NCBI GenBank assembly: GCA_937894085.1
Contig: CALCSG010000270.1
Location: 1 to 35,198, forward strand
DNA from: an uncultured Gammaproteobacteria bacterium
GTDB lineage: Bacteria; Pseudomonadota; Gammaproteobacteria; GCA-001735895
DNA: 35,198 bases
Direction of reading: 5' to 3'
Below the pieces are notes generated by a model that was not told the origin of the DNA, did not search any database, and was given only the letters and a program-made list of their open reading frames with translations. Made by a program: the position numbers and the translations under genes. Below, in pieces: positions 2,335 to 34,881 of this stretch. The first letter of the stretch is position 1. Each line of letters opens with the position of its first letter.

Positions 2335-3519
2335 TTAAAAATAACGAGCTAGTTCAAGCAATAAATAATCATCCCTTTTAAAGGCTTGCAGAGGAAGATC
2401 CTCCTCATCAATGTTATTAAATAACTGCAATTCACCGGATAATTTCCAGCTTTCACCCAGACGCCGACTCGCTTCGACTCTGATGCTCTGGCTTTGTTTA
2501 TCAATATCTACAATAAACCCGGCCAGCACTTCAGTACTTTGCACATCATTAAAGGCAAACCTTGCGCCGGCGAATAAGTCATTATCAAAAACACCGGCAT
2601 CTACAGCGCGATCTTCCCAGGAGTATTCAACAAGAGTACCAAGGTCGATTGCCGAACCTGCAATACCATAGAAAGTATATTCAAAACCTCCGGTTGCAGC
2701 GGTAAACGAGTCAGCCTCCGAGTTACGATGAATCATTTCAAGCTTCCAGATCCAGTCACCAATAATTGATTGTAAATCTAACCCAAACTGAGTGATCTGC
2801 TGGTAAAAGGGTATAAGTACTGTTTGCCCATCCTGATCAAAACCGACTGAGAAACTGGCATCCCTATTTGTGCCATCAAACCAGGACAGTGCAAAGTCGG
2901 TATCACCCAAATTGCGTTCAAAACGAAGGGCATAATCAATATGACTTTCCTCATCCGAAGACTCATAAGTGGTTTGACTGGTATCAACCACCAGTGGAAA
3001 TCTCAGGCGTCCTTGTTCTGCATGAAACGTTGCTTCACGAAACCCGGTCAACACGAAAGCATGCAACACTCCCCAGTCCTGAATGGTAGTGTAATGAATC
3101 ATCGGCTGACCCAGCTTATCTTCACCATCTATTCCTTCCACCAGATCAATCTGGTTAATCACATCGACCAGATGCTGAGACTCAGTCACTCCCCAGAATA
3201 CGCTATCGATTCCAACACGCCATTCATCGTTGCCTGATACATGCAACCATTTAAATTCACGTATATCGGCGTGTTGACGTTCATCATCCTGGTTATCGCC
3301 ACGAAAAAATAATTCAACCGACAACTCGTCATTTCCCTCATTCCAGGACTGTCTCAGTTTGGGTTTGAAAGACAACGTCAGGTTATCATCCATTTGCTGA
3401 TCAAACTGTGCAGACTGTGTGAACACAATTAGCTCTGCTGCAACATTTCCCGAATAATCCAGCGCCTGCGCCGATAAACTAGTGACTATCAATAAACAAA
3501 AAAAGAACAATCGTTGCAT
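2335..3519 (-). CDS. Outer-membrane beta-barrel protein of the RND/LolA-like export operon
   Basis: This 394-residue secreted protein has a signal peptide (about residues 1-19, ending SAQA). The rest alternates short amphipathic strands with acidic turns, for example the repeated 'Dxx..W' and 'xLSW..G' stretches. It ends in ARYF, and a C-terminal Phe is the usual BAM recognition signal of outer-membrane barrels. It is the last gene of the TetR-RND-LolA-like operon, starting 5 bp after the LolA-like stop. By position it is the outer-membrane component of that export route. I place it only at the level of porin-like barrel; a DUF1302-type relationship is possible but not demonstrable here. Confidence 0.72.
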   Translation of the reverse strand: MQRLFFFCLLIVTSLSAQALDYSGNVAAELIVFTQSAQFDQQMDDNLTLSFKPKLRQSWNEGNDELSVELFFRGDNQDDERQHADIREFKWLHVSGNDEWRVGIDSVFWGVTESQHLVDVINQIDLVEGIDGEDKLGQPMIHYTTIQDWGVLHAFVLTGFREATFHAEQGRLRFPLVVDTSQTTYESSDEESHIDYALRFERNLGDTDFALSWFDGTNRDASFSVGFDQDGQTVLIPFYQQITQFGLDLQSIIGDWIWKLEMIHRNSEADSFTAATGGFEYTFYGIAGSAIDLGTLVEYSWEDRAVDAGVFDNDLFAGARFAFNDVQSTEVLAGFIVDIDKQSQSIRVEASRRLGESWKLSGELQLFNNIDEEDLPLQAFKRDDYLLLELARYF

Positions 3520-3524
3520 TATTC

Positions 3525-4319
3525 TTATCGCGCTCTTTTCAGGGTTTGTGATTTAAAGTCATTTTCAGACAATCCTGTTTTGAATGCATAATTACTCCAT
3601 ATCAGAGTGGTGGATTTTCCATTTTGATGATTAACCATTTGCATTTTACCCGGGCGCCAGTAATGCCCCAGAGACTGCTGGTAATCCTCAGATGTCAAAG
3701 TCTTTAACATTTCATCTTTACGGTCATAAAAATCTGCCTTGATCAATCGATAAGCCTGTTTATCGATCCACACATGCTGCCGTTTGTAACCAGAATATTG
3801 ATAGGCTGGTACGCGCTCCAGCACATAACACTGCATTTCACCACAGGCTTCTTCGCGTAATAGTTTGTAGCTGTACTTTTCAATTTCCTGCGAACCCAGA
3901 TCTTCAAAGGCAAACTCACTGCCCATAAAGGGGCCGGACTTATTTCGCGAACTGATTCGTTTAACACGCTTGATAGCCGGTAAATACAACCACTGATCAT
4001 CAGGTTCTAACCCGTGCGAATAGGTTAACATAGCAGTACCTTTAACATCTGCTGGCTGATCAAAAATAGACATACTTTTGTCACCATCACCGGTCACTTC
4101 CAGCGTTTTAATTCGAATTTCCCGACTCGACGTATCGCCTTTTTTATTCATTAAAGTCATCAGCATATTGGCAGTAAAATCGACAAATCCGGCATCATAA
4201 GCTTTCGCATCTTTAGCTATTTGCAAACCTTTTTGTTCTGCAGTTTGTGCCATAACAACCAACGGCATACCAAGTAGAATGACCATCAAAACCTTTTTAA
4301 TACTGTATTTACTCAACAT
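3525..4319 (-). CDS. LolA-like outer-membrane lipoprotein-sorting protein
   Basis: This 264-residue periplasmic protein has a signal peptide (residues 1-25, ending VMAQ). The family segment WLYLPAIKRVKRI at about 111-123 is followed by SSRNKSGPFMGSEFAFEDL, typical of the LolA-like family PF17131, which is regularly encoded beside MMPL/RND exporters. The fold is a half-open beta-barrel that carries a hydrophobic ligand. Its ATG overlaps the end of the RND gene by 11 bp, with GGAG inside the upstream gene, so translation is coupled. It probably shuttles a lipid or lipoprotein from the exporter to the outer membrane; the ligand is unknown. Confidence 0.85.
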   Translation of the reverse strand: MLSKYSIKKVLMVILLGMPLVVMAQTAEQKGLQIAKDAKAYDAGFVDFTANMLMTLMNKKGDTSSREIRIKTLEVTGDGDKSMSIFDQPADVKGTAMLTYSHGLEPDDQWLYLPAIKRVKRISSRNKSGPFMGSEFAFEDLGSQEIEKYSYKLLREEACGEMQCYVLERVPAYQYSGYKRQHVWIDKQAYRLIKADFYDRKDEMLKTLTSEDYQQSLGHYWRPGKMQMVNHQNGKSTTLIWSNYAFKTGLSENDFKSQTLKRAR

Positions 4320-6609
4320 TCTTTATCTCCTTTTTATCCAGTGCCATTAATAAAGTTGGTAGTAACATAAAATCAGCAATTAGTGCAAATGTAATAGTAG
4401 CAGCTGTCATTAAACCCATATCGGCATTTAATAAAAATGCCGAGCGGGTCAACACCATAAAACCCAAAGCCAATACGATTGAGGTAGCGACAAGAGCGAG
4501 GCCAACTGTACTGAATGCGTAACGAACCGCATCTTTTGCATCCAGCCCTTTTTCACGCCTGGCGCGTAGATATTTACTCAGAAAGTGTACCGTATCATCA
4601 ACCACTATACCGAGTGTCATACCCGTTACTACCGAAAGCGCCAGTCCTACCTGCCCCACCGTAATCCCCCATAATCCAAAGGCCATACCCGCAGGCACCA
4701 GGTTTGGAACCAGACTGATTAAACCTATTTTAAAAGAACGTAAGGCAAAAATTAAAATAATTGATATAAGTACCAGAGCGACAGAGGTTCCGGTCAACAT
4801 GGCACGAATATTTCGAAACCCGATATGGCTGAACATCAGTGTAGGGCTTGCTCCATCATTTTGCATAGTGGCAGGAGCATTGTCCCGTAACCATTGTTGC
4901 GCCCTGTTTTCCAGCGCAATAACTGCAGAAGTAGACATGTTATACAACATCACAGTCATACGTGTGGATGACTTGTCGACATTTATTTGATTGTTCAAAT
5001 CCAGTCCATAGGGCAATGACATTTCATACAGCAGTAAATACTGCGCAGCGAGATCTCTCTGACCGGGCAGTTTGTACCAGTCAGCATCGTCACCATGTAG
5101 ATTTCTATTTAAACGTTTGAAAATATCGGTAAGTACATTGACGTGAATAACCTCAGGTTGTTCACGGAACCAGTTTGCCAGGCTTTCCACTTTAGTTAAA
5201 AATTCCGGGTTACTCACGCCTCCAGCTTCCCCTGAAGCTAAAGAATAATCGATCAGGTATAACCCACTCAGGTTATCTGAAGCAAAATCAGCATCACGTC
5301 TGAATTCTATTTCAGTACTGAAATACTTGGTGAATTCATCATTCAGTTCATTACTCGGCACAAATGAAATCATCAATACAATAAAAACGCCCATACCAAT
5401 CAGCAAACTCTTGCGACGTGCTATGACAAACTCGGCCAACACCACCATCAGTCGACTGGAGTGGGTATCCATTACCTTTTCCTTAACCGGCAAAACCATC
5501 ATCATGGCAGGTAAGAAGCTAATGCTTAACAGGTAGGCTACTACAACCCCCATCGCCACAATATTACCTAAATCGCGAAAAGGTGGCGCATCAGAAAAAT
5601 TCATGCTGAGGAAACCAATCGCCGTGGTGACGGTGGTTAAAAACACAGGCTGCATATTGATACGTAAGCTGTCCACCATCGCTTCGTGTCGCGACTCCCC
5701 CTGATGTATAGCGATAATAAAATTCATTAGAATATGTACCGAATGAGCGATCGACATGGTAGGTATAATCATGACTGCTGAAAAGGAAGGCGGTGTTAGC
5801 GCGATACCCATCCAACCGGCCAGTCCCATCGCACCGACGATAGAAAACACTATCACAAACAATGTTGTCAGCGTCCCACTAAAACCTTTAACCCAGAAGA
5901 ACAACACGATAATAAAAACCCCAAACATCAACGGTACCAGGTACTTCATATCGTATTGCTGGGCTTCGGGGAAAGCCTGGTTCATCATGATGATTCCAGT
6001 CAGCTTGACATCAATACCCGGGAATTTCTGCATAAACTTCTGCTTCAGGTCTCGAACAAAGTTAACTACTTTTGGATTTTCCGTGGTCGGTTCTTCGCCT
6101 TTTAATTCAATAGTGACATTAACCCCGGTCACATGTGCACTGGGTGAAATTAGTCGGTTTACCAGCAATGGTTCGTTTATAGCAATTTCACGTACCTGCT
6201 GTAACCTTTGTTCAGTTAATTCATCTTCTGCAAACACCAGATCCTGTACGATCAAATCATCACCCTCTGCATAGGTGTGCTGATAATTGGTAATAGAATC
6301 TACGCGGGTAGAAAAAGTGGTTTGCCATGCCTGCTCTGTTAACCAGATGACTGCCTTTAAAGTCTTCCCGGTAAAAACGTTACCATCTTCAGGCACCAGC
6401 ACCATCATCACGTTATCATTTTTGGAATAGGTATCCTGCAAGTTTTCAAATGCCAGTAACTGAGGATTTTCCTTGCTGAAGAAAACCCGATAATCGTTGG
6501 TAAAGGTCAGAAACTGAGCCCCAAAACCCATAGCCATAACCGCCAGCAAACTGAGTACAATCACTAACCATTTGAATCGAATAATCCCTTCTGCATAATT
6601 TTTAGTCAT
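4309..6609 (-). CDS. RND/MMPL superfamily exporter
   Basis: This 766-residue inner-membrane protein has the duplicated RND layout. It has an N-terminal helix (about 13-34), a periplasmic loop to about 215, a block of helices (about 218-370), a second helix and loop (about 400-600), and a second helix block (about 607-760). The GIVVDDTVHFLSKY stretch in the second block is the conserved proton-relay/transport motif region of MMPL-like exporters. Length and layout fit the HpnN/YdgH-type lipid exporters rather than the 1000-residue AcrB drug pumps. It follows the TetR gene by 11 bp and overlaps the LolA-like gene, so all are co-transcribed. The substrate is likely a lipid or hydrophobic compound, by inference. 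Confidence 0.88.
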   Translation of the reverse strand: MTKNYAEGIIRFKWLVIVLSLLAVMAMGFGAQFLTFTNDYRVFFSKENPQLLAFENLQDTYSKNDNVMMVLVPEDGNVFTGKTLKAVIWLTEQAWQTTFSTRVDSITNYQHTYAEGDDLIVQDLVFAEDELTEQRLQQVREIAINEPLLVNRLISPSAHVTGVNVTIELKGEEPTTENPKVVNFVRDLKQKFMQKFPGIDVKLTGIIMMNQAFPEAQQYDMKYLVPLMFGVFIIVLFFWVKGFSGTLTTLFVIVFSIVGAMGLAGWMGIALTPPSFSAVMIIPTMSIAHSVHILMNFIIAIHQGESRHEAMVDSLRINMQPVFLTTVTTAIGFLSMNFSDAPPFRDLGNIVAMGVVVAYLLSISFLPAMMMVLPVKEKVMDTHSSRLMVVLAEFVIARRKSLLIGMGVFIVLMISFVPSNELNDEFTKYFSTEIEFRRDADFASDNLSGLYLIDYSLASGEAGGVSNPEFLTKVESLANWFREQPEVIHVNVLTDIFKRLNRNLHGDDADWYKLPGQRDLAAQYLLLYEMSLPYGLDLNNQINVDKSSTRMTVMLYNMSTSAVIALENRAQQWLRDNAPATMQNDGASPTLMFSHIGFRNIRAMLTGTSVALVLISIILIFALRSFKIGLISLVPNLVPAGMAFGLWGITVGQVGLALSVVTGMTLGIVVDDTVHFLSKYLRARREKGLDAKDAVRYAFSTVGLALVATSIVLALGFMVLTRSAFLLNADMGLMTAATITFALIADFMLLPTLLMALDKKEIKNVE

Positions 6610-6620
6610 AATTATTCCTG

Positions 6621-7271
6621 TTAATTATTTTTATTCTGAATGAGGTTTAAGTACTGAATTAATCCCTCTCCACAAAACATGAGCTTGCTTAAATCCTGCG
6701 AAATCATACCTGCACTTAAACAGCCTTCCATAGTTGCCACCACCATCACCGCGACCTGTTCGGGTTGAACCTGATCAATAAGTTGACCAGATTGCTGAGC
6801 CTTCATCACTGCTTTAACAATAGCTTCATGCCATAATTCATATATGACATTCAGCCGGGTGCGAAATCCCTCATCGATTGGAGCCATTTCCTGTGCCAGG
6901 CTGCTAAGTGGGCAACCTAGCTGAACATCCCTCAGAGAAAAAGCATTACCTGACTGCTGAATTAACTCAATAAGACTATCAATGGGACGACCGGAATCAT
7001 TTAACGGAGCGATAAAGCTTCGATAAATTCGGTCCGCAATAACTTCTTCAATCACCGCATATCCCAGTTCAGTTTTATTGGGGAAGTGATGATACAAAGC
7101 GCCTTTTGTTAGCCCGGTATGAGCCAGAATATTATTCAGGCTTGCCGCCTGAAAACCATTTAAATGAATTTCTTTATACGCTGCAAATAAAATTTTAGTT
7201 CGTGTATTGTGAAAAGGCTCATCGTCTAGCAACCGCCACCAGTAAACTCCAGAATCATCATGATCAGACAT
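6621..7271 (-). CDS. TetR/AcrR-family transcriptional repressor
   Basis: This 216-residue regulator has a typical TetR helix-turn-helix around residues 43-62 (ASLNNILAHTGLTKGALYHHF) after a rather long acidic, Trp-containing N-terminal extension. The C-terminal two thirds is an all-helical ligand domain. The open frame reaches 7328, but the promoter -10 lies at 7300-7305, so the transcript begins near 7293. The ATG at 7269-7271 (MSDHDD) is therefore the supported start. The gene heads the exporter operon and should repress it, because two palindromic operators sit in its own promoter. Its inducer may be the exported compound. Confidence 0.88.
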   Translation of the reverse strand: MSDHDDSGVYWWRLLDDEPFHNTRTKILFAAYKEIHLNGFQAASLNNILAHTGLTKGALYHHFPNKTELGYAVIEEVIADRIYRSFIAPLNDSGRPIDSLIELIQQSGNAFSLRDVQLGCPLSSLAQEMAPIDEGFRTRLNVIYELWHEAIVKAVMKAQQSGQLIDQVQPEQVAVMVVATMEGCLSAGMISQDLSKLMFCGEGLIQYLNLIQNKNN

Positions 7272-7282
7272 ACATAACCTCA

Positions 7283-7328
7283 CATACCAACTGGTATGCT
7301 TTATAATACCGACCGGTATGCATGTCAA
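7283..7328 (-). promoter_or_regulatory. Autoregulated promoter with two TetR operators
   Basis: On the minus strand a perfect -35 TTGACA (7323-7328) and a -10 TATAAA (7300-7305) are separated by exactly 17 bp. The palindrome ATACCGACCGGTAT (7306-7319) occupies the spacer. A second one, CATACCAACTGGTATG (7283-7298), lies across the expected transcription start. Both fit ATACC-RACY-GGTAT. Binding at either would block RNA polymerase, so the promoter is very likely repressed by the TetR protein it transcribes, together with the exporter genes. Confidence 0.85.
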
Positions 7329-7816
7329 TTTATTATTGTCTTCGGCCGGCAGGTAATAAAAATTTCAATATCTCCCTGGTGACCGTAGGACCTGGCATAG
7401 GTCTACCACGGAAAAGGTATTTTGGCCTGGTTTACTGGCAGACAAATTTTCTATAGCAGCACCTTAATTATGATTTTTATACGAATATCACATCAACAAC
7501 ACCTAATATATAATCATGCGTATAAGAATCACCAACACAGTGAACCAACTCAATTATCGTTTTCCATCAAAGTCAATACAGGGAATATTTTTTCCGTCGA
7601 ACTCGATACTCGCAGAATCATTCATCGCAGCAGGCTCATCGTACCCTCTCCTGACCGTCCAAACACCACAAACAAAGAAGTTTTGCTGCCTTAACTCCCT
7701 GATTCCACTAAAAAACCTTCGTGTACTTCGTGCTCTTATTGGTGAAAAATATCAGACGTAGCATCAATACCGATTCTCTACTATATTATCCGATCACGGG
7801 TCCGGTAGGTTCCTGG
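7329..7816. other. Intergenic region with a CACGAAG-type repeat copy
   Basis: No supported gene. The promoter of the TetR operon borders it on the left. On the right it contains one copy (7711-7750) of a CTTCGTG-xx-CTTCGTG repeat that recurs near 10714. Remaining sequence is unremarkable. Confidence 0.5.
7711..7750. repeat. Dispersed CTTCGTG repeat, copy A
   Basis: The core CCTTCGTGTACTTCGTGCTC is followed by TTATTGGTGAAA. A second copy at 10714-10750 aligns over about 33 bases with few mismatches. On the minus strand it reads CACC..GAGCACGAAGTACACGAAGG, a phrase I recall as common between genes in environmental bacteria. Confidence 0.5.
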
Positions 7817-8074
7817 CTATTTACATTTCTTTTCAAGCTCCCTTCGGCGTTTAAGTCCTTTTCTGTGCTCCGCCGAGGCGATTTTAAGTTCAAGCTTTAA
7901 ATGCTTACGTTCACTTTTGTCATCTTCTTCAGCCAGCATTGCCTGTAACTTACGCTCTTTTCTTTTAATTTTTTCCAGTAATTCATCGATCCGTTCACAG
8001 CTAATATTATGTTTACTCTTTTTCCCCTTATGCAGATTTTGCTTAAGTTTTTTTATTAGTTTGTTAAGTCCCAT
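7817..8074 (-). CDS. Small highly charged coiled-coil protein
   Basis: This 85-residue protein is dominated by Lys, Glu and Arg. A basic N-terminus (KKLKQNLHKGKKSKH) is followed by a long heptad-like helix (residues about 28-83). It has no signal peptide or membrane segment. It begins 24 bp after the stop of the Na/Pi cotransporter gene on the same strand, so it is probably the third gene of that operon. The ribosome binding site is weak (GAGAC). I do not recognise the family. It could be a cytoplasmic partner of the PhoU-like tail of the transporter or a nucleic-acid binder; both are guesses. Confidence 0.6.
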   Translation of the reverse strand: MGLNKLIKKLKQNLHKGKKSKHNISCERIDELLEKIKRKERKLQAMLAEEDDKSERKHLKLELKIASAEHRKGLKRRRELEKKCK

Positions 8075-8098
8075 AATATTTGTCTCGGTATCAGTCCG

Positions 8099-9898
8099 TT
8101 ATTTATCGATTAAATCGTCCGCTATTACAGATTTCGCCATACTTTTTGCAAAGGAATAAATCCTTCTCTGTTTTTCTATGATATCAATTTCGATGGTATA
8201 CGCGGCAATCCGGTTGGGTTCTTCGGCGACCAGTCTTTCTGCCTGGTGTTCGGTGGCGGAGTCAACCAGATCTATGATTTCCCGCTTCATATCGATAACT
8301 TGCATAGCGGCAAGTTCGTTGTTTTGTGAGACGGCCTGAATAGCACTACTAACAGATCTGCTCACTACCTTATGGAAATCATTAAGAACCTTCTGGGTAG
8401 CTTTACTAATAGAGAATCCGGCATCGAAACGACTAAATCCGAGGTCTACCATATTGGTTTCGATAGTATCCCCGATATTCTCAAGCTGGTTTACCGCAGA
8501 CATGAGTTGTAGAAAGTCCTGCATTTGATTATTTGATAACGAGCCTTTACTGATCCTGCCCATATACTCGATTATCTGGTCATACAGTAAATCGACTTCC
8601 TCATCCTGTTCTCTGACCGCCTGCAGGGCCTTACTATCACCAGAAATAATGGCAGGCATGATACTTTTAAGCATATTTTCCACTTTTTCTCCCATGTGCA
8701 GAACTTCCAGACGCACCCTGTCCAGTGCCAGAGCGGGAGTAGTCAGCAGTACCTCATCCAGATATTTGGCCCTCACAGTCAACACTTTGGTTTCATCCAG
8801 TGGAGCATCCGGCACCAGCCACTCAACCAGGCGCGCGAACTGGGTTGTAAAACCGATAAAAATAAGTGTATTAGCAATATTAAAAATGGTGTGCGCATTC
8901 GCGATCTGACGCGGGGTTTCTGCTCCCAGTCGATCCACTCCGCTTAGCTCCGGGTGGGAGGGAGAAAATGAAGTAACAAACTGGGCTAAATAGTCAATAA
9001 AAAACACCCAGATGAGCACTCCTGCCACATTAAATCCAATGTGTACTACTGCCGCCCGCACTGCTTCCCTGGGTTTACCTATAGAGGCGAGCAAAGCGGT
9101 AACGCAAGTACCGATATTGGCACCAAAAGCTAATGCTATTCCGGCAGGCAGGGTGATAAACCCCTGACTGGCCATGACAATAACAATACCGGTCGTGGCA
9201 GAGGAAGATTGTATCAGGCCTGTAAAAGCGGCAGCCACCAGTATACCGACCAATGGGCTTTCCATCTGAATCATCAGGTCAAGGAAAGGCTGGTAAGTAC
9301 GTAATGGGCTCATCGCATCACTCATAACACTCATGCCGAAGAAAACCAGCCCGAGTCCCATCAGCATAGTACCGTAATGTTTGATACTTTCTTTTTTGGA
9401 GCCAAACAGCATGGTAAACCCGACTCCTATCATCAGCAGGGCAGCCTTGGTGACCTTGAAAGCCACTATTTGAGCAGTGATGGTAGTACCGATATTGGCA
9501 CCCATGATAATGCCAATTGACTGTGCCATAGACATCAGACCAGCAGATATAAAGCCTACTACGAGTACCGTGGTCACCGAAGAAGACTGGATAATGGCAG
9601 TAACAAATGCACCGGTAATCGCACCCATAAAACGATTAGCCGTGAGCTTTGCCAGGATATCTTTCATACGATCACCGGCAACCGCTTTTAAGGAGTCAGA
9701 CATTTGTTCCATGCCAAATAAAAACAGGGCCAGACCTCCATACAGCTTCATACCCATCAAACCCCATGCCATTTCAGCACCACCTTCTGCTCTTGCGGCA
9801 AGTGCCGGCAGGGCAACCATCAGGAAGAAACCAGCCAGCAGCAGAAACAGCAATTTTCCATTAAAGTGACGGGGGTTAATCAGGTTAGAGAGTGTCAT
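8099..9898 (-). CDS. Na+/phosphate cotransporter with PhoU-like tail
   Basis: This 599-residue inner-membrane protein has an N-terminal hydrophobic segment, then the duplicated transport core with the hallmark QSSS repeats: AIIQSSSVTTVLVVG near residues 103-117 and GLIQSSSATTGIVIV near 226-240. These place it in the NptA/YjbB (SLC34-like, PF02690) family. The last about 220 residues form PhoU-like helical bundles that contact the membrane domain in relatives. The start has GAGGAAG just upstream. It lies between the UspA gene (27 bp upstream) and the small charged protein gene. Import or export of phosphate cannot be told from sequence. Confidence 0.9.
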   Translation of the reverse strand: MTLSNLINPRHFNGKLLFLLLAGFFLMVALPALAARAEGGAEMAWGLMGMKLYGGLALFLFGMEQMSDSLKAVAGDRMKDILAKLTANRFMGAITGAFVTAIIQSSSVTTVLVVGFISAGLMSMAQSIGIIMGANIGTTITAQIVAFKVTKAALLMIGVGFTMLFGSKKESIKHYGTMLMGLGLVFFGMSVMSDAMSPLRTYQPFLDLMIQMESPLVGILVAAAFTGLIQSSSATTGIVIVMASQGFITLPAGIALAFGANIGTCVTALLASIGKPREAVRAAVVHIGFNVAGVLIWVFFIDYLAQFVTSFSPSHPELSGVDRLGAETPRQIANAHTIFNIANTLIFIGFTTQFARLVEWLVPDAPLDETKVLTVRAKYLDEVLLTTPALALDRVRLEVLHMGEKVENMLKSIMPAIISGDSKALQAVREQDEEVDLLYDQIIEYMGRISKGSLSNNQMQDFLQLMSAVNQLENIGDTIETNMVDLGFSRFDAGFSISKATQKVLNDFHKVVSRSVSSAIQAVSQNNELAAMQVIDMKREIIDLVDSATEHQAERLVAEEPNRIAAYTIEIDIIEKQRRIYSFAKSMAKSVIADDLIDK

Positions 9899-21133: not shown

Positions 21134-21463
21134 CTAGTCCTCAAGATTGGTATGACACAGTACTGAGCGCATGTTGGAAATCAGCGACAACAATTGATCA
21201 TTGCTAATACTGTAGTACACCTTGTTAGCATCTTTGCGGGATTTGATGATGTTTTTACTCCTTAGCAGATCCAGATGCTGGGAGGTATTGCTTTGAGATG
21301 AGCCTATCTTCTCCACGATATCGCCCACTGAAAGCTCTTCACTACCCAGGGTACAAATGATCCGCCAGCGTAGCGGGTTGGCCATGGCCTTCAGTGCGTT
21401 CGCTGTGAGAGCAGTCTCTTCTACTGATGGCTCCTCTGGTGACGCAGATTGTTCTTTACTCAT
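21134..21463 (-). CDS. ArsR-family helix-turn-helix repressor
   Basis: This 109-residue winged-helix protein contains the ArsR recognition region: LSVGDIVEKIGSSQSNTSQH (44-63), DLLRSKNIIKSRKDANKVYY and a C-terminal helix. It lacks the ELCVC metal site of ArsR/SmtB, with ELSVGDI in its place. It has only Cys37 and Cys103, so metal sensing is unlikely. Its ATG overlaps the stop of the REC-PAS gene by 4 bp, so it is the third gene of a signalling operon and probably a downstream output or feedback regulator. Confidence 0.88.
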   Translation of the reverse strand: MSKEQSASPEEPSVEETALTANALKAMANPLRWRIICTLGSEELSVGDIVEKIGSSQSNTSQHLDLLRSKNIIKSRKDANKVYYSISNDQLLSLISNMRSVLCHTNLED

Positions 21464-22350
21464 ACAGAATCTCCAAAATCAGACTCGGATAGGTCATCGT
21501 CATCATCATCTATCTTTACATAACCGGTCATATTTTTCGCGATACAGATAATATCCGTGACGACTCCTGTCTCGTCAGCCATCGCGGTGCGTGACAACAG
21601 AATTGGCACAAGGGTACCGCTGCTGGTAATAAATCGTGCTTCAACATTCCTTACCACTCCACTACGAATTATTGCTTCCAACCAGGTTCCCATGAAGGCA
21701 CCGGCCTGCTCGTCCTCGGCTTCTTCAAAAACATCACCGATACTCAGGCCGACCAGCTCATTTTCCCTGTAACCCAGCATATTCTGCGCAGCAGGATTGG
21801 TGGACTTGATCTGCCCTTCAGGAGAGAGCACCAGCAGCGCCTCACCCATGGTATTCAATAAACGTTCCTGATACCGCCTGATCTGCTCCAGCTCAGCCGT
21901 GCGCTGTGCTACTTTCTCCTCCAACAGCAGGTTCAATGCACGCTCTTTTTCAATCAGGCGGAAATATGCCGTCAGTTTGTTCAATAGCAAATTGTCGTCA
22001 ATGGGCTTCATCAGGTAATCAGCGGCACCCACATCGTACCCCTTTTGCTGGAATTCGTCTGTCTTGTAGGCGGCGGTGAGGAATATTACCGGGATCTCGC
22101 GCGTCTTCTTGCGCACCTTGAGCATGGAAGCGGTTTGAAAACCGTCCATCTCTGGCATCTGAACATCAAGGATAATTAAATCAACATCATTCTCGGTGAG
22201 CGCAAGCTTGACCGCCTTTTCTCCGCCATCAGCCTCGATTACCTGTACGTCAGTATACCTCTCGATCAGACTACGCAGGGTGAACAGGTTGTTCGGATTG
22301 TCGTCGACAATCAGCACCTTGAACCCGGCATAACGTTTGTGTTCTGTCAT
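21460..22350 (-). CDS. Response regulator with PAS domain (REC-PAS)
   Basis: This 296-residue protein has a receiver domain (about residues 10-125) with acidic pocket Asp16/Asp17, phosphoacceptor Asp62 (LILDVQMPEMDG) and conserved Lys in YLMKP. A coiled-coil (about 130-160) and a PAS domain (about 160-275) follow. An acidic tail with DDDDD ends the protein. There is no DNA-binding or enzymatic output, so it probably passes signal to a partner such as the hybrid kinase or the ArsR protein. The ATG overlaps the kinase stop by 4 bp. Confidence 0.9.
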   Translation of the reverse strand: MTEHKRYAGFKVLIVDDNPNNLFTLRSLIERYTDVQVIEADGGEKAVKLALTENDVDLIILDVQMPEMDGFQTASMLKVRKKTREIPVIFLTAAYKTDEFQQKGYDVGAADYLMKPIDDNLLLNKLTAYFRLIEKERALNLLLEEKVAQRTAELEQIRRYQERLLNTMGEALLVLSPEGQIKSTNPAAQNMLGYRENELVGLSIGDVFEEAEDEQAGAFMGTWLEAIIRSGVVRNVEARFITSSGTLVPILLSRTAMADETGVVTDIICIAKNMTGYVKIDDDDDDLSESDFGDSV

Positions 22351-24704
22351 AGTTTACCCGTCTCCTCATTTAAGACCTTGCTCAGTACATTGTGTAGCTC
22401 ACGAACATCAACCGGCTTGACCAGATAATCACCGACACCCAGCGCAAGCCAGCGCTCTCGGTCATCGTCGCCCGCTTTGGCAGAAAGACCGATACAGGGT
22501 AGTGTAGCAAACCGGGACTGCTCACGGATAGCGCCAGCCAATGCCAGACCATCCATCCCTGGCATCATAACATCGAGCAAGGCAACCGCTACGTCGGACT
22601 CCTCTGCCAGTGTTTCCAGCGCTTCTTCAGCATCACCCGCGGCGATCACATCCAGCCCCCATCCCTCAAGCACCGGCGTCAGGGCCAGCAAATTGCGCAT
22701 ATCATCATCCACCATAAGGATTCTCGCCCCTTTAAAATCGGCAAACGGAATGGATTCAGTGTCTTCCGCCTGCAAGTCCCCCTGCATGTTACGGGGCCCA
22801 CTCTTAACTGGTTCATCGCAATCATCCGTTACCAGTCGCTCTGGCAGCATGACGGTGAAGGTTGCACCCTGCCCCAACTGACTCTCGACACTGATTCGCC
22901 CGCCCATCAATACCGCGAGCTTACGACTGATTGAAAGCCCCAGCCCGGTGCCACCATATCGACGACTGGTTGATCCATCTGCCTGTTGAAAGGCCTCGAA
23001 GATTAGTTCCTGCTTGTCCTTAGAAATACCAATACCCGTATCGGCGACGCTGATCCTGATCGGCCATCGACTATCCGGCGCAACATTCTCCAGGCGCAAG
23101 GTAATCTGCCCCTTTGCCGTGAATTTTATCGCATTCGCCATAAAATTTTTCACAATCTGCGAGAGTTTATCTGCATCGGTATACAAAGTCTCAGGAGCAG
23201 ACACCTGAATATCCACCACCAGTTCCAGGCCTTTGTCGTCAGTAACGGGCTTGAACAGATCCTGAATGTCATTTAACAGATCTACAATGATCAGCTTGTC
23301 AACTTTCAGATCCAGTCGCCCTGCTTCTATCTTCGATAAGTCGAGAATGTCGTTTATCAGCTGTGACAGATCCTGCCCAGCCTTATTGATCACCCTGGCC
23401 TGCTGTTTCTGTTTATCATCCAGCCCCTGCTGTTCGGATGCCAACAACTTCGACAACAATAAAATCGAATTTAGCGGCGTACGCAGTTCGTGACTGACAT
23501 TGGCTAGAAACTCTGATTTGTACCGGTTGGTCTTCTCAAGCTCTTGCGCGTAATCACGAAGGTCACCACTGTTTTTTGCATGCCTTTCTGACAAGGTAGT
23601 GAGCCTCTCAGCCAGTGCGCGCGCCTCTCGGGGACTAGACCAGTCAAACTTCACTGGCTTGTCCTCATCCAGCATGCGAGCGATACCATTGGTGAAGGAT
23701 GCCTGGAGTTTCACGGCACGATTTGCAAACACCTGAGCCACAATGAATATCATAACAACCATGACCAACATAATGCCAGCTGTGCGTAGCTCCAGGTTTT
23801 TACGAAAAGTATCCAGGGGAGAAGAATCGACAAGGCGCCCCACCCATAGAGGACCTGAATCTGTGGTGGGGAATAGAGGTACCCAGATCGCCTGACGTTC
23901 ATTCTCACCTCTCCACAGGCCCAGATTACCCGCTTCGAACAGACGATTAAGTCCAGGATAATCGGTAAATGCTGTGGACCCGTCTTCGCTAGCACCCTCA
24001 CCTCGAAAATACCTTCCGTTGTGATGTACCCACAGGATATCCTTGAAGACCCGAGCCAGACCGCTAACGTCCAGATTGATCACAACAGCTCCCAAAGGGG
24101 CGCCCGATGGGTCAAACCCTGCTCCTTCAAATTCCTGCTCATACACAGGGGTAATCAACTGCAGATTGATAAAACGAGTTGGATTCAACTGACCAGCCTG
24201 TTCGTCTATGACTATCGGGCCGGTCATCACCCGGCCTCGCGCAGCCTTGATACCACTATCAAGAAATGGCTTGTCTACCTTAACCGTTAGCTGCTCCTCG
24301 ATGTACATCTTACTGGTAGTCGGGTCGCGATGCATCAATAGTCGCTCGTTTCCACCCCGGTCAACGAATAGCACCTGTACAATATCTAGCCGATCAAACA
24401 CCAGGCGGTTCATCCAGTCCGTATAACGTTCCTTCACCACATCTAGTTCCGGTCCAGCCTGCCCGGACATTAACTGTTTCATGTGTGGAAAGCGGGATAT
24501 GATATTCACAGTCTCCCGACGACTTGCAATGTGCTGATCCAGTTCATGGAAGTCTGCACGTAGATTCTGCAGATGGGAATCATTATAGAGCTGGGTCAGT
24601 CTGTCGAACATCAGTGGCTGATTCATCAACTGTTCGGCCACCAGAGGCGCCAGACCAAACAGAAGAAGTATTATCAAGACATAGGTGCGAAGTTTGATGC
24701 TCAT
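22347..24704 (-). CDS. Hybrid sensor histidine kinase with periplasmic sensor
   Basis: This 785-residue protein has a first membrane helix (about 7-24), a periplasmic Cache-like sensor (about 30-305), a second helix (309-326), a linker, a HisKA domain with phosphoacceptor His405 (NVSHELRTPLN), a HATPase domain with NAIKF, DTGIGI and GGTGLGL, and a C-terminal receiver (about 661-780). The receiver has Asp711 in LLDVMMPGMDG and Lys763 in LVKP. It starts the operon kinase - REC-PAS - ArsR. The upstream region has no strong ribosome binding site. The sensed ligand is unknown. Confidence 0.92.
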   Translation of the reverse strand: MSIKLRTYVLIILLLFGLAPLVAEQLMNQPLMFDRLTQLYNDSHLQNLRADFHELDQHIASRRETVNIISRFPHMKQLMSGQAGPELDVVKERYTDWMNRLVFDRLDIVQVLFVDRGGNERLLMHRDPTTSKMYIEEQLTVKVDKPFLDSGIKAARGRVMTGPIVIDEQAGQLNPTRFINLQLITPVYEQEFEGAGFDPSGAPLGAVVINLDVSGLARVFKDILWVHHNGRYFRGEGASEDGSTAFTDYPGLNRLFEAGNLGLWRGENERQAIWVPLFPTTDSGPLWVGRLVDSSPLDTFRKNLELRTAGIMLVMVVMIFIVAQVFANRAVKLQASFTNGIARMLDEDKPVKFDWSSPREARALAERLTTLSERHAKNSGDLRDYAQELEKTNRYKSEFLANVSHELRTPLNSILLLSKLLASEQQGLDDKQKQQARVINKAGQDLSQLINDILDLSKIEAGRLDLKVDKLIIVDLLNDIQDLFKPVTDDKGLELVVDIQVSAPETLYTDADKLSQIVKNFMANAIKFTAKGQITLRLENVAPDSRWPIRISVADTGIGISKDKQELIFEAFQQADGSTSRRYGGTGLGLSISRKLAVLMGGRISVESQLGQGATFTVMLPERLVTDDCDEPVKSGPRNMQGDLQAEDTESIPFADFKGARILMVDDDMRNLLALTPVLEGWGLDVIAAGDAEEALETLAEESDVAVALLDVMMPGMDGLALAGAIREQSRFATLPCIGLSAKAGDDDRERWLALGVGDYLVKPVDVRELHNVLSKVLNEETGKL

Positions 24705-28592: not shown

Positions 28593-31500
28593 TCAGCCAC
28601 TAACAGGCTTCAGGGCATCTCCTTTACGTTTAAAATGCAAATCGGGACTATTCGCTTCTCGTTTACATTTAACCAGTGTACCCTCACCCGGTGAGGACTC
28701 AATCGATAACTGGCATCCAATAATGCCGGCCCGATACTGCATAATGCGTAATCCTATTCCATCTTTTGCTTCCTTATCCAGCTGAAAACCGCAACCATTA
28801 TCTTTAATACTTATATCAAACTCATCCTGCCCTGTTTTAAGATTGATATGGATTTCGCTAGCACCAGCGTGCTTTACGGCATTGTTAACAGACTCTAACG
28901 CGATGCGATAAATCTGTGTGGCAACGGTTCGATCCTCGATATTGATTGAGTCACCCGCATCAAAAGTACATTCTATCCCTGTAGCGCTTTTAACACTCTT
29001 TACCAGCAACCTGAGTGCATCTTTTAAGCCTTCCGAGGTAACCGGCACCGGAACCAGGCCATGCGACAGTGCTCGCGCATTTTTAATGGCCAGCTGCAAC
29101 TGCTGATTTAGTTCATTCAATTTTTCGGCTTCTGGTAGTCGGCGATTAGCCAGCTGTCTTTGTACGCTGCTCGCAATCATACTCAAACCGGTTAGTTGCT
29201 GCCCCAGCCCGTCATGAATTTCCTGTCCTATACGCTCCTGTTCCTGTGTGCTTATCTCAGCAATCTGTCTTTCCAGTGCCTTCTGTTCACTCAAATCGCG
29301 TATCAGACCGACATACGCCCCCAGATGATCAACTTCAGTAACGGTTAGTTCCATAGGAAAAATCAAACCATCCTCGCGCATCCCCGACATTTCCCGTGGC
29401 TGGTTAATAATATGGGCTACTCGGTGTTTCTTATAACGTGCCAGGTACCCATCATGCTCTTCGCGATACGGCGAAGGCATCAACAGGCTAACATTTCGAC
29501 CAATGGCTTCATTAGCGGCATAACCAAATATTTTTTGCGCAGTCAGATTAAAATCAGTAATAACGCCATCAAGACCGATAACAACGATTGCTTCGGCTGC
29601 ATTATTCATCACCGCCTGTAACCGTTCTTCGCGATCATGAAGTGCAGACTCAGATAGATGACGCTGGGTAACATCGTACAAAATCCACACTTCTCGATCT
29701 TCATACTTATAACCGGCATACTCTATGTAACGCTGCTCACCATTTTTTCTTGTCAGTAAAGTAGGATCACTCTGTCTTGAAAAACCGGCCTTACGTTCCT
29801 GCTCATAGTAGTGTCGATTTTCAGCTGCCCGTTCACCGTATAAGCGGTTAAACCACTGATCTGGTGTTGTAAGTTCATGACGACTGTAACCGGTAATTTC
29901 CTCCGTTGCCCGGTTAATTCGAAGTCTATCCTTTTCCAGGTATACCGCACCTGCCGGCAGGTGCTCCACCATGTTCAGCAGGCGTTCAGTCTGTACCTTC
30001 AATTCATCAAGCTGTAGACGCTCACTGATATCACGCTCTATTGTAGCAAGTGCAACAGTTTGCCCTGCTTCATTATGCAGAGCAGTCACCGTTATCCACA
30101 CAGTCAACAGCCGTCCATCTTTGGTCAGGCGGTCGCTGTTTAATGAGGTAATGGACTCACCCTGGGTGATGCGTTTTAGGTATTCACGAGTATCATCCTG
30201 TTGTTCTTTCGGTAACAGGTCATAGATAGTCATTTTCTGTGCCTCAGCCTCGGTATAGCCATACAGCTTCTCGGCTCCGCGGTTCCAGGCCGAGATTTTC
30301 CCGTCAAGATCGAGCAGGGTAATGGCGTCATCGGAGTCGTGCAGAATAGTCGCCATACGACGCGACTGCTGCTCACCTTCGACGCGCCTTGTGATATTGA
30401 AAAATGTGATAACAAGCCCCTCAATACGATTATCGGCAGTGCGAAAGGGTTGAATACGTCTCAGGTAATAAGCTCCACTACTGACATGAAACTCATTTTC
30501 CAATGGGGTTAAGTTCTGCAGCACCCTGGCTGCATCCTGTAGCATGTCAGAGCTGCTAAAATCGGTGGCAAAAGTACTGATCGGACGCCCGATATCGCTA
30601 CTCAGCAAACCCAGTAATTTGCCGGTGGCCGAGGTAAACTGGCGGATACATAAGTCGGTATCAAGAAACAGAGTGGCGATTTCTGCACTATTCAGCAGGT
30701 TGGACATATCGTTATGAGCATTATCCAGCTCGTCGACTTTATCCTGTAACTGACTATTAACCGTGCTCAACTCTTCATTCAACGACTGCAATTCTTCTTT
30801 CGATGTTTCCAGCTCTTCGTTTGCTGACTGCAGTTCTTCATTCATCGACATGATTTCTTCATTAGAGGCTTTAAGTTCCTCGTTCGAACTTTCCATGTCT
30901 TCAATAGTGCTTTGCAGGTCATCACGGGTCACTTTCAGTTCATATTCCAGCTGCCTGACCAGTGACGATTCCTCGACAGGGCTAGCCTCTGTTTCAAGCC
31001 CGCTTTCTGCATCTTTAATATCGAGTTTCTGGAATGTGACCAACAATAAACCTTCCGCCTGTTTTGGTTCGATAATCGGCTTAACCGTGATAATGCAGGG
31101 TTGCCAGTGGTTATTATGTTTGACCCGGGCGCTACTATCACTCACCAACTGTTCATTTTGAATGGCCTTGTGACAGGCAGCACGCAATTTAGTTGGTAAA
31201 CCCTGCCTGGACATGGCAATCAGGTCATGGGTTGGTTGCCCGGTCGGCGCCTCCAGGAAATCCCCTGTCGGCCCCTGAAAATATAACACTTCATATTTAC
31301 GACTAATCAACACCGAAGCCGGTGCATAATCATCCAGCAGATGGCGCCTGGTCAGTTCGGCAAAGTTTATGTCAGGCGTGCCTCTTGTATTAACTGGGGA
31401 CGGTGACAATCCGGCAAGTTTAAAGCCGGAAGTAACAGGAAAGTCGACTATATCTCGCCGGGTGGGACCAACCCGACGGAAAACACGCCATTTTTTGGAG

Positions 31501-32951
31501 ACAGTTTCAAATAAATCCACATGTCGCCCGACCGTTTCTGATGAACCGAGAAACAGATGACCGTCTTCGTTAAGTGCAAAATGAAACAAAGAGATAACTT
31601 TTTGCTGGACTTCCGGTTCAAGGTAAATCAGCAGATTTCGACAACTGATCAGGTCCAGTTTTGAAAAAGGTGCATCACTAATCAGGTTCTGCTCTGCGAA
31701 CACAACCAGTTCTCGAATCTGTTTATTAACCTGGTAATGGCTACCGGTCAGGGTAAAGAAACGTCGCAATCGTTCCGGCGGGATGTCGGCTGCCGCACTT
31801 ACCGGGTAAAGCCCATGTCGGGCAAACTCCAGAGCAGTTTCATCGATGTCGCTTGCAAAAATTTGTAGTTTGAGTGGCGTATGCGCCTCGGTATATGCTT
31901 CAACAATCAGCATGGCAAGAGAGTAGGCTTCTTCCCCGGTTGCGCAGCCGGGGATCCAGATGCGTATGTACTGCTCATCATCCTTACGTTTAATCCATTG
32001 CGGAATGACTCGTTGTTGCAATATTCTGTACGCTTCAGGTTCACGAAAAAACCCGGTCACACCGATCAGTAAATCACGCAACAAATTGCTGGCTTCATCC
32101 GGCTTTTTTCGTAGAAATTCACTGTAATTGACAAGCTGATCTATCTGGTTTAGCCCCATACGGCGTTGAACTCGACGCAAGATCATATTCTTTCGATAGT
32201 AACGAAAATCGTATTTAGTATGTGCCTTTAGTAACCCAAGCACACGATCTAGTTGTTCAAGTTCAGTTGGTGCGGGGTCAAGCGGAGCCCATGCCCCGCT
32301 CACATAGGCGTGTTGTACGTATCTGCTCAAAGTGGCAGGCATTTCTGCTGGAGACAGAATGTAATCTACGATTCCGGTTTTAATTGCATTTTGCGGCATG
32401 GCATCGTACTCGGCTGTGTCGGGACGCTGCACCATGACCATTCCACCATTAGCCTTAATTGCCTGCAGACCGACACTTCCGTGTGAACTGGTTCCAGATA
32501 GAATTATGCCGATCGCGCGCTCCTGCTGGTCCTGCGCCAGTGAACGCAGAAAATAATCGATGGCCGTGTCTAACCGGCTCGGCTCAGGAGGTGTTGACAG
32601 TGACAGATGGTCATTCTGCACAGACAGATACTTAGCGGGTGGAATTACATACACATGGTTGCGATCGATAGACATACCATTTTGTATTTCACAAACGGGC
32701 ATAGTGGTCTGCCGCGACAGTAAATCAACCATCAAACTCTGATGCGAAGGATCCAGATGCGGTACCAGCACAAAAGCCATGCCGCTGTCTTCCGGCATAT
32801 TCTTAAAAAATGTTTTAAAGGCTGCCAGCCCACCTGCAGAAGCCCCTATCCCAGCCACAGGGCAGCAGACTGGACGCTTTCTATTGCTATCAGCAGAATC
32901 GTTGCGTCTGGACTTTTTGTGCTTAGAAGTATTGTGGCTGGATGCAGACAT
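28593..32951 (-). CDS. CheB-CheR-coiled coil-PAS sensor histidine kinase
   Basis: This very large 1452-residue cytosolic protein has, in order: a CheB methylesterase domain (about 30-215), a CheR methyltransferase domain (about 240-510; [10 protein letters not shown] and SCRNLLIY), a linker, a Glu-rich coiled coil (about 660-760, NEELQ repeats), about four PAS domains, and a HisKA_3/HATPase kinase with His1246 ([13 protein letters not shown]), NNAVKHA and GIGLRIM. CheB keeps Ser38 (GASAGG) and His65 but has His157 in SGTSSHG, where the catalytic Asp (SGTGSDG) is expected. It probably phosphorylates the NarL-type regulator encoded upstream on the same strand. Confidence 0.9.
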
Positions 32952-33434: not shown

Positions 33435-34088
33435 TTATTTCATTGAAGCCAGAACCCAGTGTACAGCGCTGATCATCAATTCAGAACCCGAAGTCAGGCC
33501 CAGTTTTAGTTTCATATTGGCACGATGTGATTCGATAGTTTTAATACTGAGATGAAGTTTTTCAGCAATCTCACTGGTTGCAACTCCCCGACCTATCAGC
33601 TCAAATACTTCCAGTTCGCGATCTGATAAATGCTCAACAGAAGAAAGTGCTGAGTCCAGGTAGTTATTGGGTGGTCTTTGCAACAGAGTATCAGTCATCT
33701 CATTGCTTATATAAATCTCTCCTTTTAACACCTGTCTGATAGCAAAAATAACCTGCTCACTGGCCTCCTGTTTATTGATATAGCCTTTTGCTCCTGCGCG
33801 CAAACAGCGTTCTGCATAAAGATTTTCACTATACATCGAAGAAACCAGGATAAGAATATCCGTGTTTTTAGCTCTTAAGCGTTTAATTAAATCAAGTCCA
33901 TTACCATCGGGCAGTGATAGATCAACAATCACTAAATCAGGCGTACACTGTGCAAATTTTTCCATCGCCTCACTGACACTCGCGGCTTCACAACACACAA
34001 CCAGATCGGGTTCTGTTTCAATCAACTGGTGAAACCCGTTGCGCACTAGCGGGTGATCATCAATGACCATTATTTTTACTTTATTCAT
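33435..34088 (-). CDS. NarL/LuxR-type response regulator
   Basis: This 217-residue regulator has an N-terminal receiver with Asp10/Asp11, phosphoacceptor Asp56 (LVIVDLSLPDGNG) and Lys in GYINK. The C-terminal LuxR helix-turn-helix (about 150-215) contains LSDRELEVFELIGRGVATSEIA, then EKLHLSIKTIESHRANM. HisKA_3-type kinases such as the one encoded downstream usually pair with this class. The two genes are on the same strand with the small protein gene between them. It likely binds DNA at promoters of this island when phosphorylated. Confidence 0.93.
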   Translation of the reverse strand: MNKVKIMVIDDHPLVRNGFHQLIETEPDLVVCCEAASVSEAMEKFAQCTPDLVIVDLSLPDGNGLDLIKRLRAKNTDILILVSSMYSENLYAERCLRAGAKGYINKQEASEQVIFAIRQVLKGEIYISNEMTDTLLQRPPNNYLDSALSSVEHLSDRELEVFELIGRGVATSEIAEKLHLSIKTIESHRANMKLKLGLTSGSELMISAVHWVLASMK

Positions 34089-34512: not shown

Positions 34513-34881
34513 ATGCAAATTTATATTGAAAATGGCTACTCACTGGAATTTATAATAATCAGTGCGGATGAAAGCCTGGATTTATCGGCTTATGGTACTT
34601 TTAAGGAAGCCACTTCTATCGCTCAGCATAACCCGCTTTTTATGGCCATCGTGGTGGATTTTAATCAAACTGAGAAACTGTTCGATTCAGGAATGGCGAT
34701 GTTACTCACATTACGTCAGCTATCAGGACGCCTGAAAAACCGAATCTACCTGACTCATGTCAACCCATCACTTTTCAAACAACTCAAACAGTACGGCCTC
34801 AGCAATAAATTTCTTATCAATCAGCAACCAGGGGAATTATTGAAAACAGCAATTCTAATAAATCTTCAGCAAACTGCTTAA
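34513..34881 (+). CDS. STAS-domain protein, anti-sigma factor antagonist-like
   Basis: This 122-residue single STAS domain resembles SpoIIAA-type antagonists. The usual phosphorylation site (DSSG in many) appears as LFDSGMAMLL with Ser59. Strands AIVVDF and IYLTHV and the C-terminal helix complete the fold. GAGGGG lies about 8 nt before the ATG. Such proteins switch partners with an anti-sigma or sensor complex, but no kinase of the anti-sigma type is in this window. It is divergent from the response regulator gene, so it could be a target or partner of the system. Confidence 0.82.
   Translation: MQIYIENGYSLEFIIISADESLDLSAYGTFKEATSIAQHNPLFMAIVVDFNQTEKLFDSGMAMLLTLRQLSGRLKNRIYLTHVNPSLFKQLKQYGLSNKFLINQQPGELLKTAILINLQQTA

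Follow-up and report, generated by a model that had tools for sequence, protein, structure and literature searches.

Solved structures of the methylesterase CheB are available from Salmonella (1A2O/1CHD), T. maritima (3SFT) and P. atrosepticum (6YMZ). The triad of the P. atrosepticum enzyme is given as S165-H191-D287 in a figure legend of PMC7698151. D, H, M, S and T are given as CheB catalytic residues in a passage of PMC11796326, and the S164A substitution is described as inactivating the enzyme in one of PMC8609364. CheB and CheR occur in one protein, as here, in the hybrid RC1_3878 of Rhodospirillum centenum (PMC2890560) and in the cheBR fusions counted in Geobacter (PMC8396549); the passages of these two papers that describe them do not mention triad residues. 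The literature, searched at the level of listings and passages, offered no paper that deals with substitutions in the triad of a CheB-CheR fusion, and no settled role for CheB and CheR when they are joined to cyclic-di-GMP enzymes or PAS kinases.

A CheB-CheR-PAS histidine kinase is encoded in the window, that is, the whole analysed stretch of 35,198 nt (contig CALCSG010000270.1, uncultured Gammaproteobacteria bacterium assembly GCA_937894085.1). Its features are collected in Table 1. The CheB domain has the fold of the solved CheB proteins, the same Ser and His positions, and the GASxGG and SGx loops. Unlike them, it is fused to CheR and a kinase, it has Asp128 at the equivalent of Arg257, and it has His157 at the position that aligns with D286 of Salmonella CheB in a PDB profile alignment. 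It also has no receiver in front: the N-terminal receiver domain of classical CheB is absent, as Pfam gives no Response_reg match in this ORF. The sequence-only reading had held that Ser38 and His65 are retained and that His157 (CAC, minus strand) replaces the triad Asp, and the codons and the profile alignment agree with it. Beyond what that reading listed, the 151-158 loop carries G155S, and positions 64 and 128 are Pro and Asp. The AlphaFold2 model of the domain is confident (pLDDT 92.3, pTM 0.90), and a Foldseek search with it ranks CheB structures first (3sft, 1chd, 6ymz and 1a2o, TMq 0.84-0.90). The domain is a CheB by profile, fold, Ser and His, and departs from the family in the Asp of the SGxGxDG loop.

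The CheR and kinase motifs of the protein are intact. CheR_N (residues 233-284) is followed by CheR (298-489; PF01739, 180.5 bits), and the CheR motifs, earlier described as intact, were all found: FFR, GCATGEE and CRN, which we take to be the SAM-site motifs. At the C-terminus, HisKA_3 (1237-1301) and HATPase_c (1344-1428) retain the kinase His (His1246) together with the N box and the G box. HisKA_3 with its His, HATPase_c and a LuxR-type regulator nearby identify a NarL-type histidine kinase. The last PAS domain (1106-1229; 29265-29636 on the minus strand) matches structures of the FixL haem PAS with a best E of 3.6e-27, and retains His1166 of the HDGY motif and Arg1186; these positions presumably correspond to residues with haem roles in FixL-type PAS domains. 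Because of the FixL match and the two retained residues, a haem-based sensor of oxygen or some other gas is a possible role for the kinase.

Table 1. Features of the kinase gene and its neighbour, in window coordinates
Feature	Position	Strand	Basis and remarks
CheB-CheR-PAS-HisKA_3 histidine kinase, 1452 aa	28593..32951	-	ATG start, open throughout
CheB domain, residues 34-208	32328..32852	-	Pfam PF01339, 181.7 bits
Ser38, nucleophile position, kept (codon TCT)	32838..32840	-	codon and alignment
His65, triad His position, kept (codon CAT)	32757..32759	-	codon and alignment
Pro64; Gln in 150/221 fusions	32760..32762	-	codon and alignment
Asp128, clade-specific acid, candidate migrated triad acid; usually Arg	32568..32570	-	alignment
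His157 in place of the triad Asp (codon CAC)	32481..32483	-	codon and PDB profile alignment
CheR_N and CheR methyltransferase, residues 233-489	31485..32255	-	Pfam; motifs intact
Glu-rich coiled-coil linker, residues 665-758	30678..30959	-	weak PF10473 match below cut-off, and sequence
PAS_10 and further PAS domains, last (1106-1229) FixL-like	29265..30707	-	Pfam, structure-profile match
HisKA_3 and HATPase_c, residues 1237-1428, His1246	28668..29243	-	Pfam
LuxR/NarL-type response regulator, probable partner of the kinase	33435..34088	-	Pfam Response_reg and GerE

CheB-CheR fusions were gathered from named genomes, from genomes in the class and phylum to which the window belongs, and from plasmids. 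For the latter, 243 records matched, 14 were taken and 13 counted, one (L266) being excluded as its CheB and CheR lie in separate ORFs. Window copies (L003, L005, L254), rows with identical middle parts, and ORFs with a match shorter than 300 aa (330 in some steps) or starting after residue 60 (70 in later steps) were dropped before counting. The alignment comprises 221 fusions, including that of the window, and at residue 157 these have Asp in 204 cases, Asn in nine, His, Tyr and Glu in two each, and Gln and Gly in one each; the sample was chosen by similarity to the window and leans to its relatives, so these proportions do not describe the family as a whole. The single Gln157 belongs to L148, whose CheB is degenerate and aligns poorly. 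Ser38 and His65 are each present in 219 of the 221 fusions, the other two rows being gaps in both cases. The sequence-only reading had proposed such an alignment as a check, and with Asp in 204 of the 221 sampled fusions it rules out a non-Asp residue at 157 as the family-wide norm.

The window kinase, L035 (a Planctomycetaceae MAG protein with His157) and L141 (from genome G281, with Tyr157) group in a single clade (bootstrap 99, SH-aLRT 94), and the closest other rows are Asp-type. This is the careful tree of 41 rows, in which the columns around the sites were removed, the rows were thinned, and L148, L156 and L163 were left out. A quick tree with 91 rows required at least seven changes between Asp and non-Asp, four of them forced by starred branches. 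The order CheB, CheR, coiled coil, PAS_10 is common to the three proteins and to their Asp-type neighbours L142 and L143. The outputs vary: L035 ends in HisKA_3 and L141 in HisKA, both just below the Pfam cut-off and both followed by HATPase_c, and the two Asp-type neighbours end in GGDEF-EAL. No new clade members were found in 41 genomes of the window's order or in 11 of the order of G281. Most relatives in the former set lack the gene, as matches at 1e-40 occur only in the window genome, G005 and G013; the fusions of G005 and G013 are Asp-type, as is the second fusion of the window genome, L002. A horizontal gain of the gene would be plausible.

Three further class-level changes are shared by the trio: Pro64, an aromatic residue at 108 and an acidic residue at 128. 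They are rare in the 204 Asp-type fusions, which have Pro64 in four cases, aromatic 108 in eight and acidic 128 in none. The usual residue at 128 is basic (Arg, Lys or His in 130/204 Asp-type fusions; Arg in 5/5 solved CheB sequences matched, Arg257 in Salmonella numbering from the alignment). Since the non-Asp state is common to a supported clade that also shares these three changes, it is more than a chance occurrence. Phylogenetically, the altered triad is a clade-level trait and not an accident of one genome, and a single loss of the triad Asp with subsequent divergence explains all three members. Over the whole set, position 64 covaries with 157 (non-Gln in 13/15 non-Asp rows versus 56/203 Asp rows; Fisher p 8e-6, 218/221 rows usable), but the rows are not independent and this result is not relied on.

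The rest of the CheB core is conserved in the trio. Of 27 CheB positions conserved in at least 90% of Asp-type fusions, 157 is broken in all three proteins, but among the other 78 cells just two are: L035 deviates at 157 alone, the window at 155 and 157, and L141 at 36 and 157. Moreover, pairwise identity within the trio is higher in CheB (0.60-0.62) than in CheR (0.53-0.57). In Asp-type pairs, by contrast, a CheR identity of 0.53-0.60 corresponds to a mean CheB identity of 0.535 (1532 pairs, sd 0.056). The domain is therefore kept by selection.

Several explanations of the substitution can be considered. The fragmented state of the window genome (567 contigs) and the single base separating Asp GAC from His CAC would fit a sequencing mistake in the MAG, or a domain on its way to becoming a pseudogene. 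We regard this as very improbable: the 1452-aa ORF is open, the conserved core of the trio speaks against decay, and so does, against error, the independent His157 of L035, a relative that is 53% identical and comes from a different assembly. It is also improbable, though less so, that the domain is an ordinary if slower methylesterase working on a Ser-His dyad, so that the substitution carries little weight. Ser and His are indeed kept, and Asn (nine rows), Glu (two) and Gly (one) replace Asp elsewhere among the 221, hence changes at this site are tolerated in fusions. However, 204 of these fusions conserve Asp, as do the solved CheB sequences, and in the trio its loss is accompanied by the three other class-level changes.

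Another possibility is that the triad acid has migrated, with Asp or Glu128 orienting His65 in place of residue 157 and the Ser-His-Asp esterase retained. Positions 128 and 157 are altered in the same three proteins, an acid at 128 occurs in none of the 204 Asp types, Ser38 and His65 are retained, and moved catalytic residues are known in pseudoenzymes, according to a passage of PMC10211241. In the predicted secondary structure residue 128 lies just before helix 130-145, which is followed by strand 146-150 and the 151-158 loop; by this inferred geometry 128, like 157, should be at the edge of the sheet carrying the active site. On the other hand, the trio is one clade and the co-occurrence of the two changes is hence a single event, the Asn-type and Glu-type fusions have no acid at 128, and a charge swap from Arg-Asp to Asp-His would equally preserve mere packing. 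Asp/Glu128 could thus be either the migrated acid or half of such a swap. On balance we consider migration possible but rather unlikely, and we are doubtful of the more specific proposal that the acid shifted from the SGxGxDG loop to the pre-helix Arg site in this one clade, giving a sensor kinase with a re-wired Ser-His-Asp hydrolase site, possibly for a new substrate.

The explanation we prefer, although its chances seem to us only about even, is that the CheB of this clade is a remodelled, esterase-impaired domain in a docking or regulatory role. It is favoured because Asp is nearly general in the sampled fusions, because the trio is a single clade among Asp-type neighbours with an otherwise intact core, because the CheB-fold model is confident, because other fusions keep CheB without its catalytic residues, and because a LuxR-type regulator lies beside all three clade kinases. 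Against it, the acid found at 128 in exactly these proteins may rescue catalysis, and the argument rests on three sequences and one evolutionary event. A further point against it is that all three proteins, although long diverged, retain Ser38 and His65, for which a pure scaffold would have no need; a plain dead scaffold is thereby disfavoured. The sequence-only reading had suggested a sensor or binding module rather than a methylesterase; this is partly supported: the loss of Asp beside intact CheR motifs is observed, and a role other than that of an esterase is the likeliest reading.

Other fusions have altered triads as well. In L148 (genome G176; ORF 3131-7324 on the minus strand), a CheB-CheR-PAS-GGDEF-EAL protein, the Ser, His and Asp of CheB are all lost. 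Its CheB still exceeds the Pfam cut-off (33.2 versus 24 bits), but the AlphaFold2 model is of moderate confidence (pLDDT 77.4), which weakens its use as a parallel for an impaired CheB. Like the window kinase it keeps a CheB without the full triad; it differs in lacking all three residues and in its output. In L156 (genome G213; ORF 5363-8302 on the plus strand) two residues including the nucleophilic Ser are missing and 157 is Tyr, and the rest is well kept. Asn157 was found in L040, L064, L247, L252, L260, L262, L264, L265 and L269, all but L247 and L252 from named alphaproteobacteria, some of them on plasmids. In these proteins, as in the window, the triad Asp is replaced and Ser and His are kept; however, they have Arg or Gly at 128 and not an acid, and form their own, separate clade (five of the nine rows in the 41-row tree), with the Asp-type L263 inside it. 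By these alignments, loss or alteration of the triad has occurred several times in fused CheB domains, separately in L148 and L156.

The window kinase and the adjoining LuxR-type regulator would form a phosphotransfer pair. A STAS-like protein (34513-34881, plus strand; E about 1e-4, just below the Pfam cut-off) is encoded divergently beside the response regulator. The region 21134-24704 on the minus strand encodes a hybrid histidine kinase (HisKA, HATPase, receiver), then a receiver-PAS protein and an ArsR-type regulator. Searching the DNA against E. coli gave no match. The window genome has 12 MCP and seven CheW matches, and therefore possible receptor substrates are present in the cell.

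In the preferred explanation, the triad Asp would have been replaced once in a small clade of CheB-CheR-PAS kinases (now His, His and Tyr), with Ser, His and the fold staying under constraint. The window CheB, probably with weakened esterase activity, would then be a poor methylesterase that serves as a docking or a ligand- or substrate-binding module. As such it may regulate the CheR and kinase to which it is fused, the output going to the LuxR-type regulator encoded next to them. The Asp-altered clade, its intact relatives and the triad-less relatives would provide a natural series with which to ask if CheB in such fusions acts as an enzyme or as a binding part.
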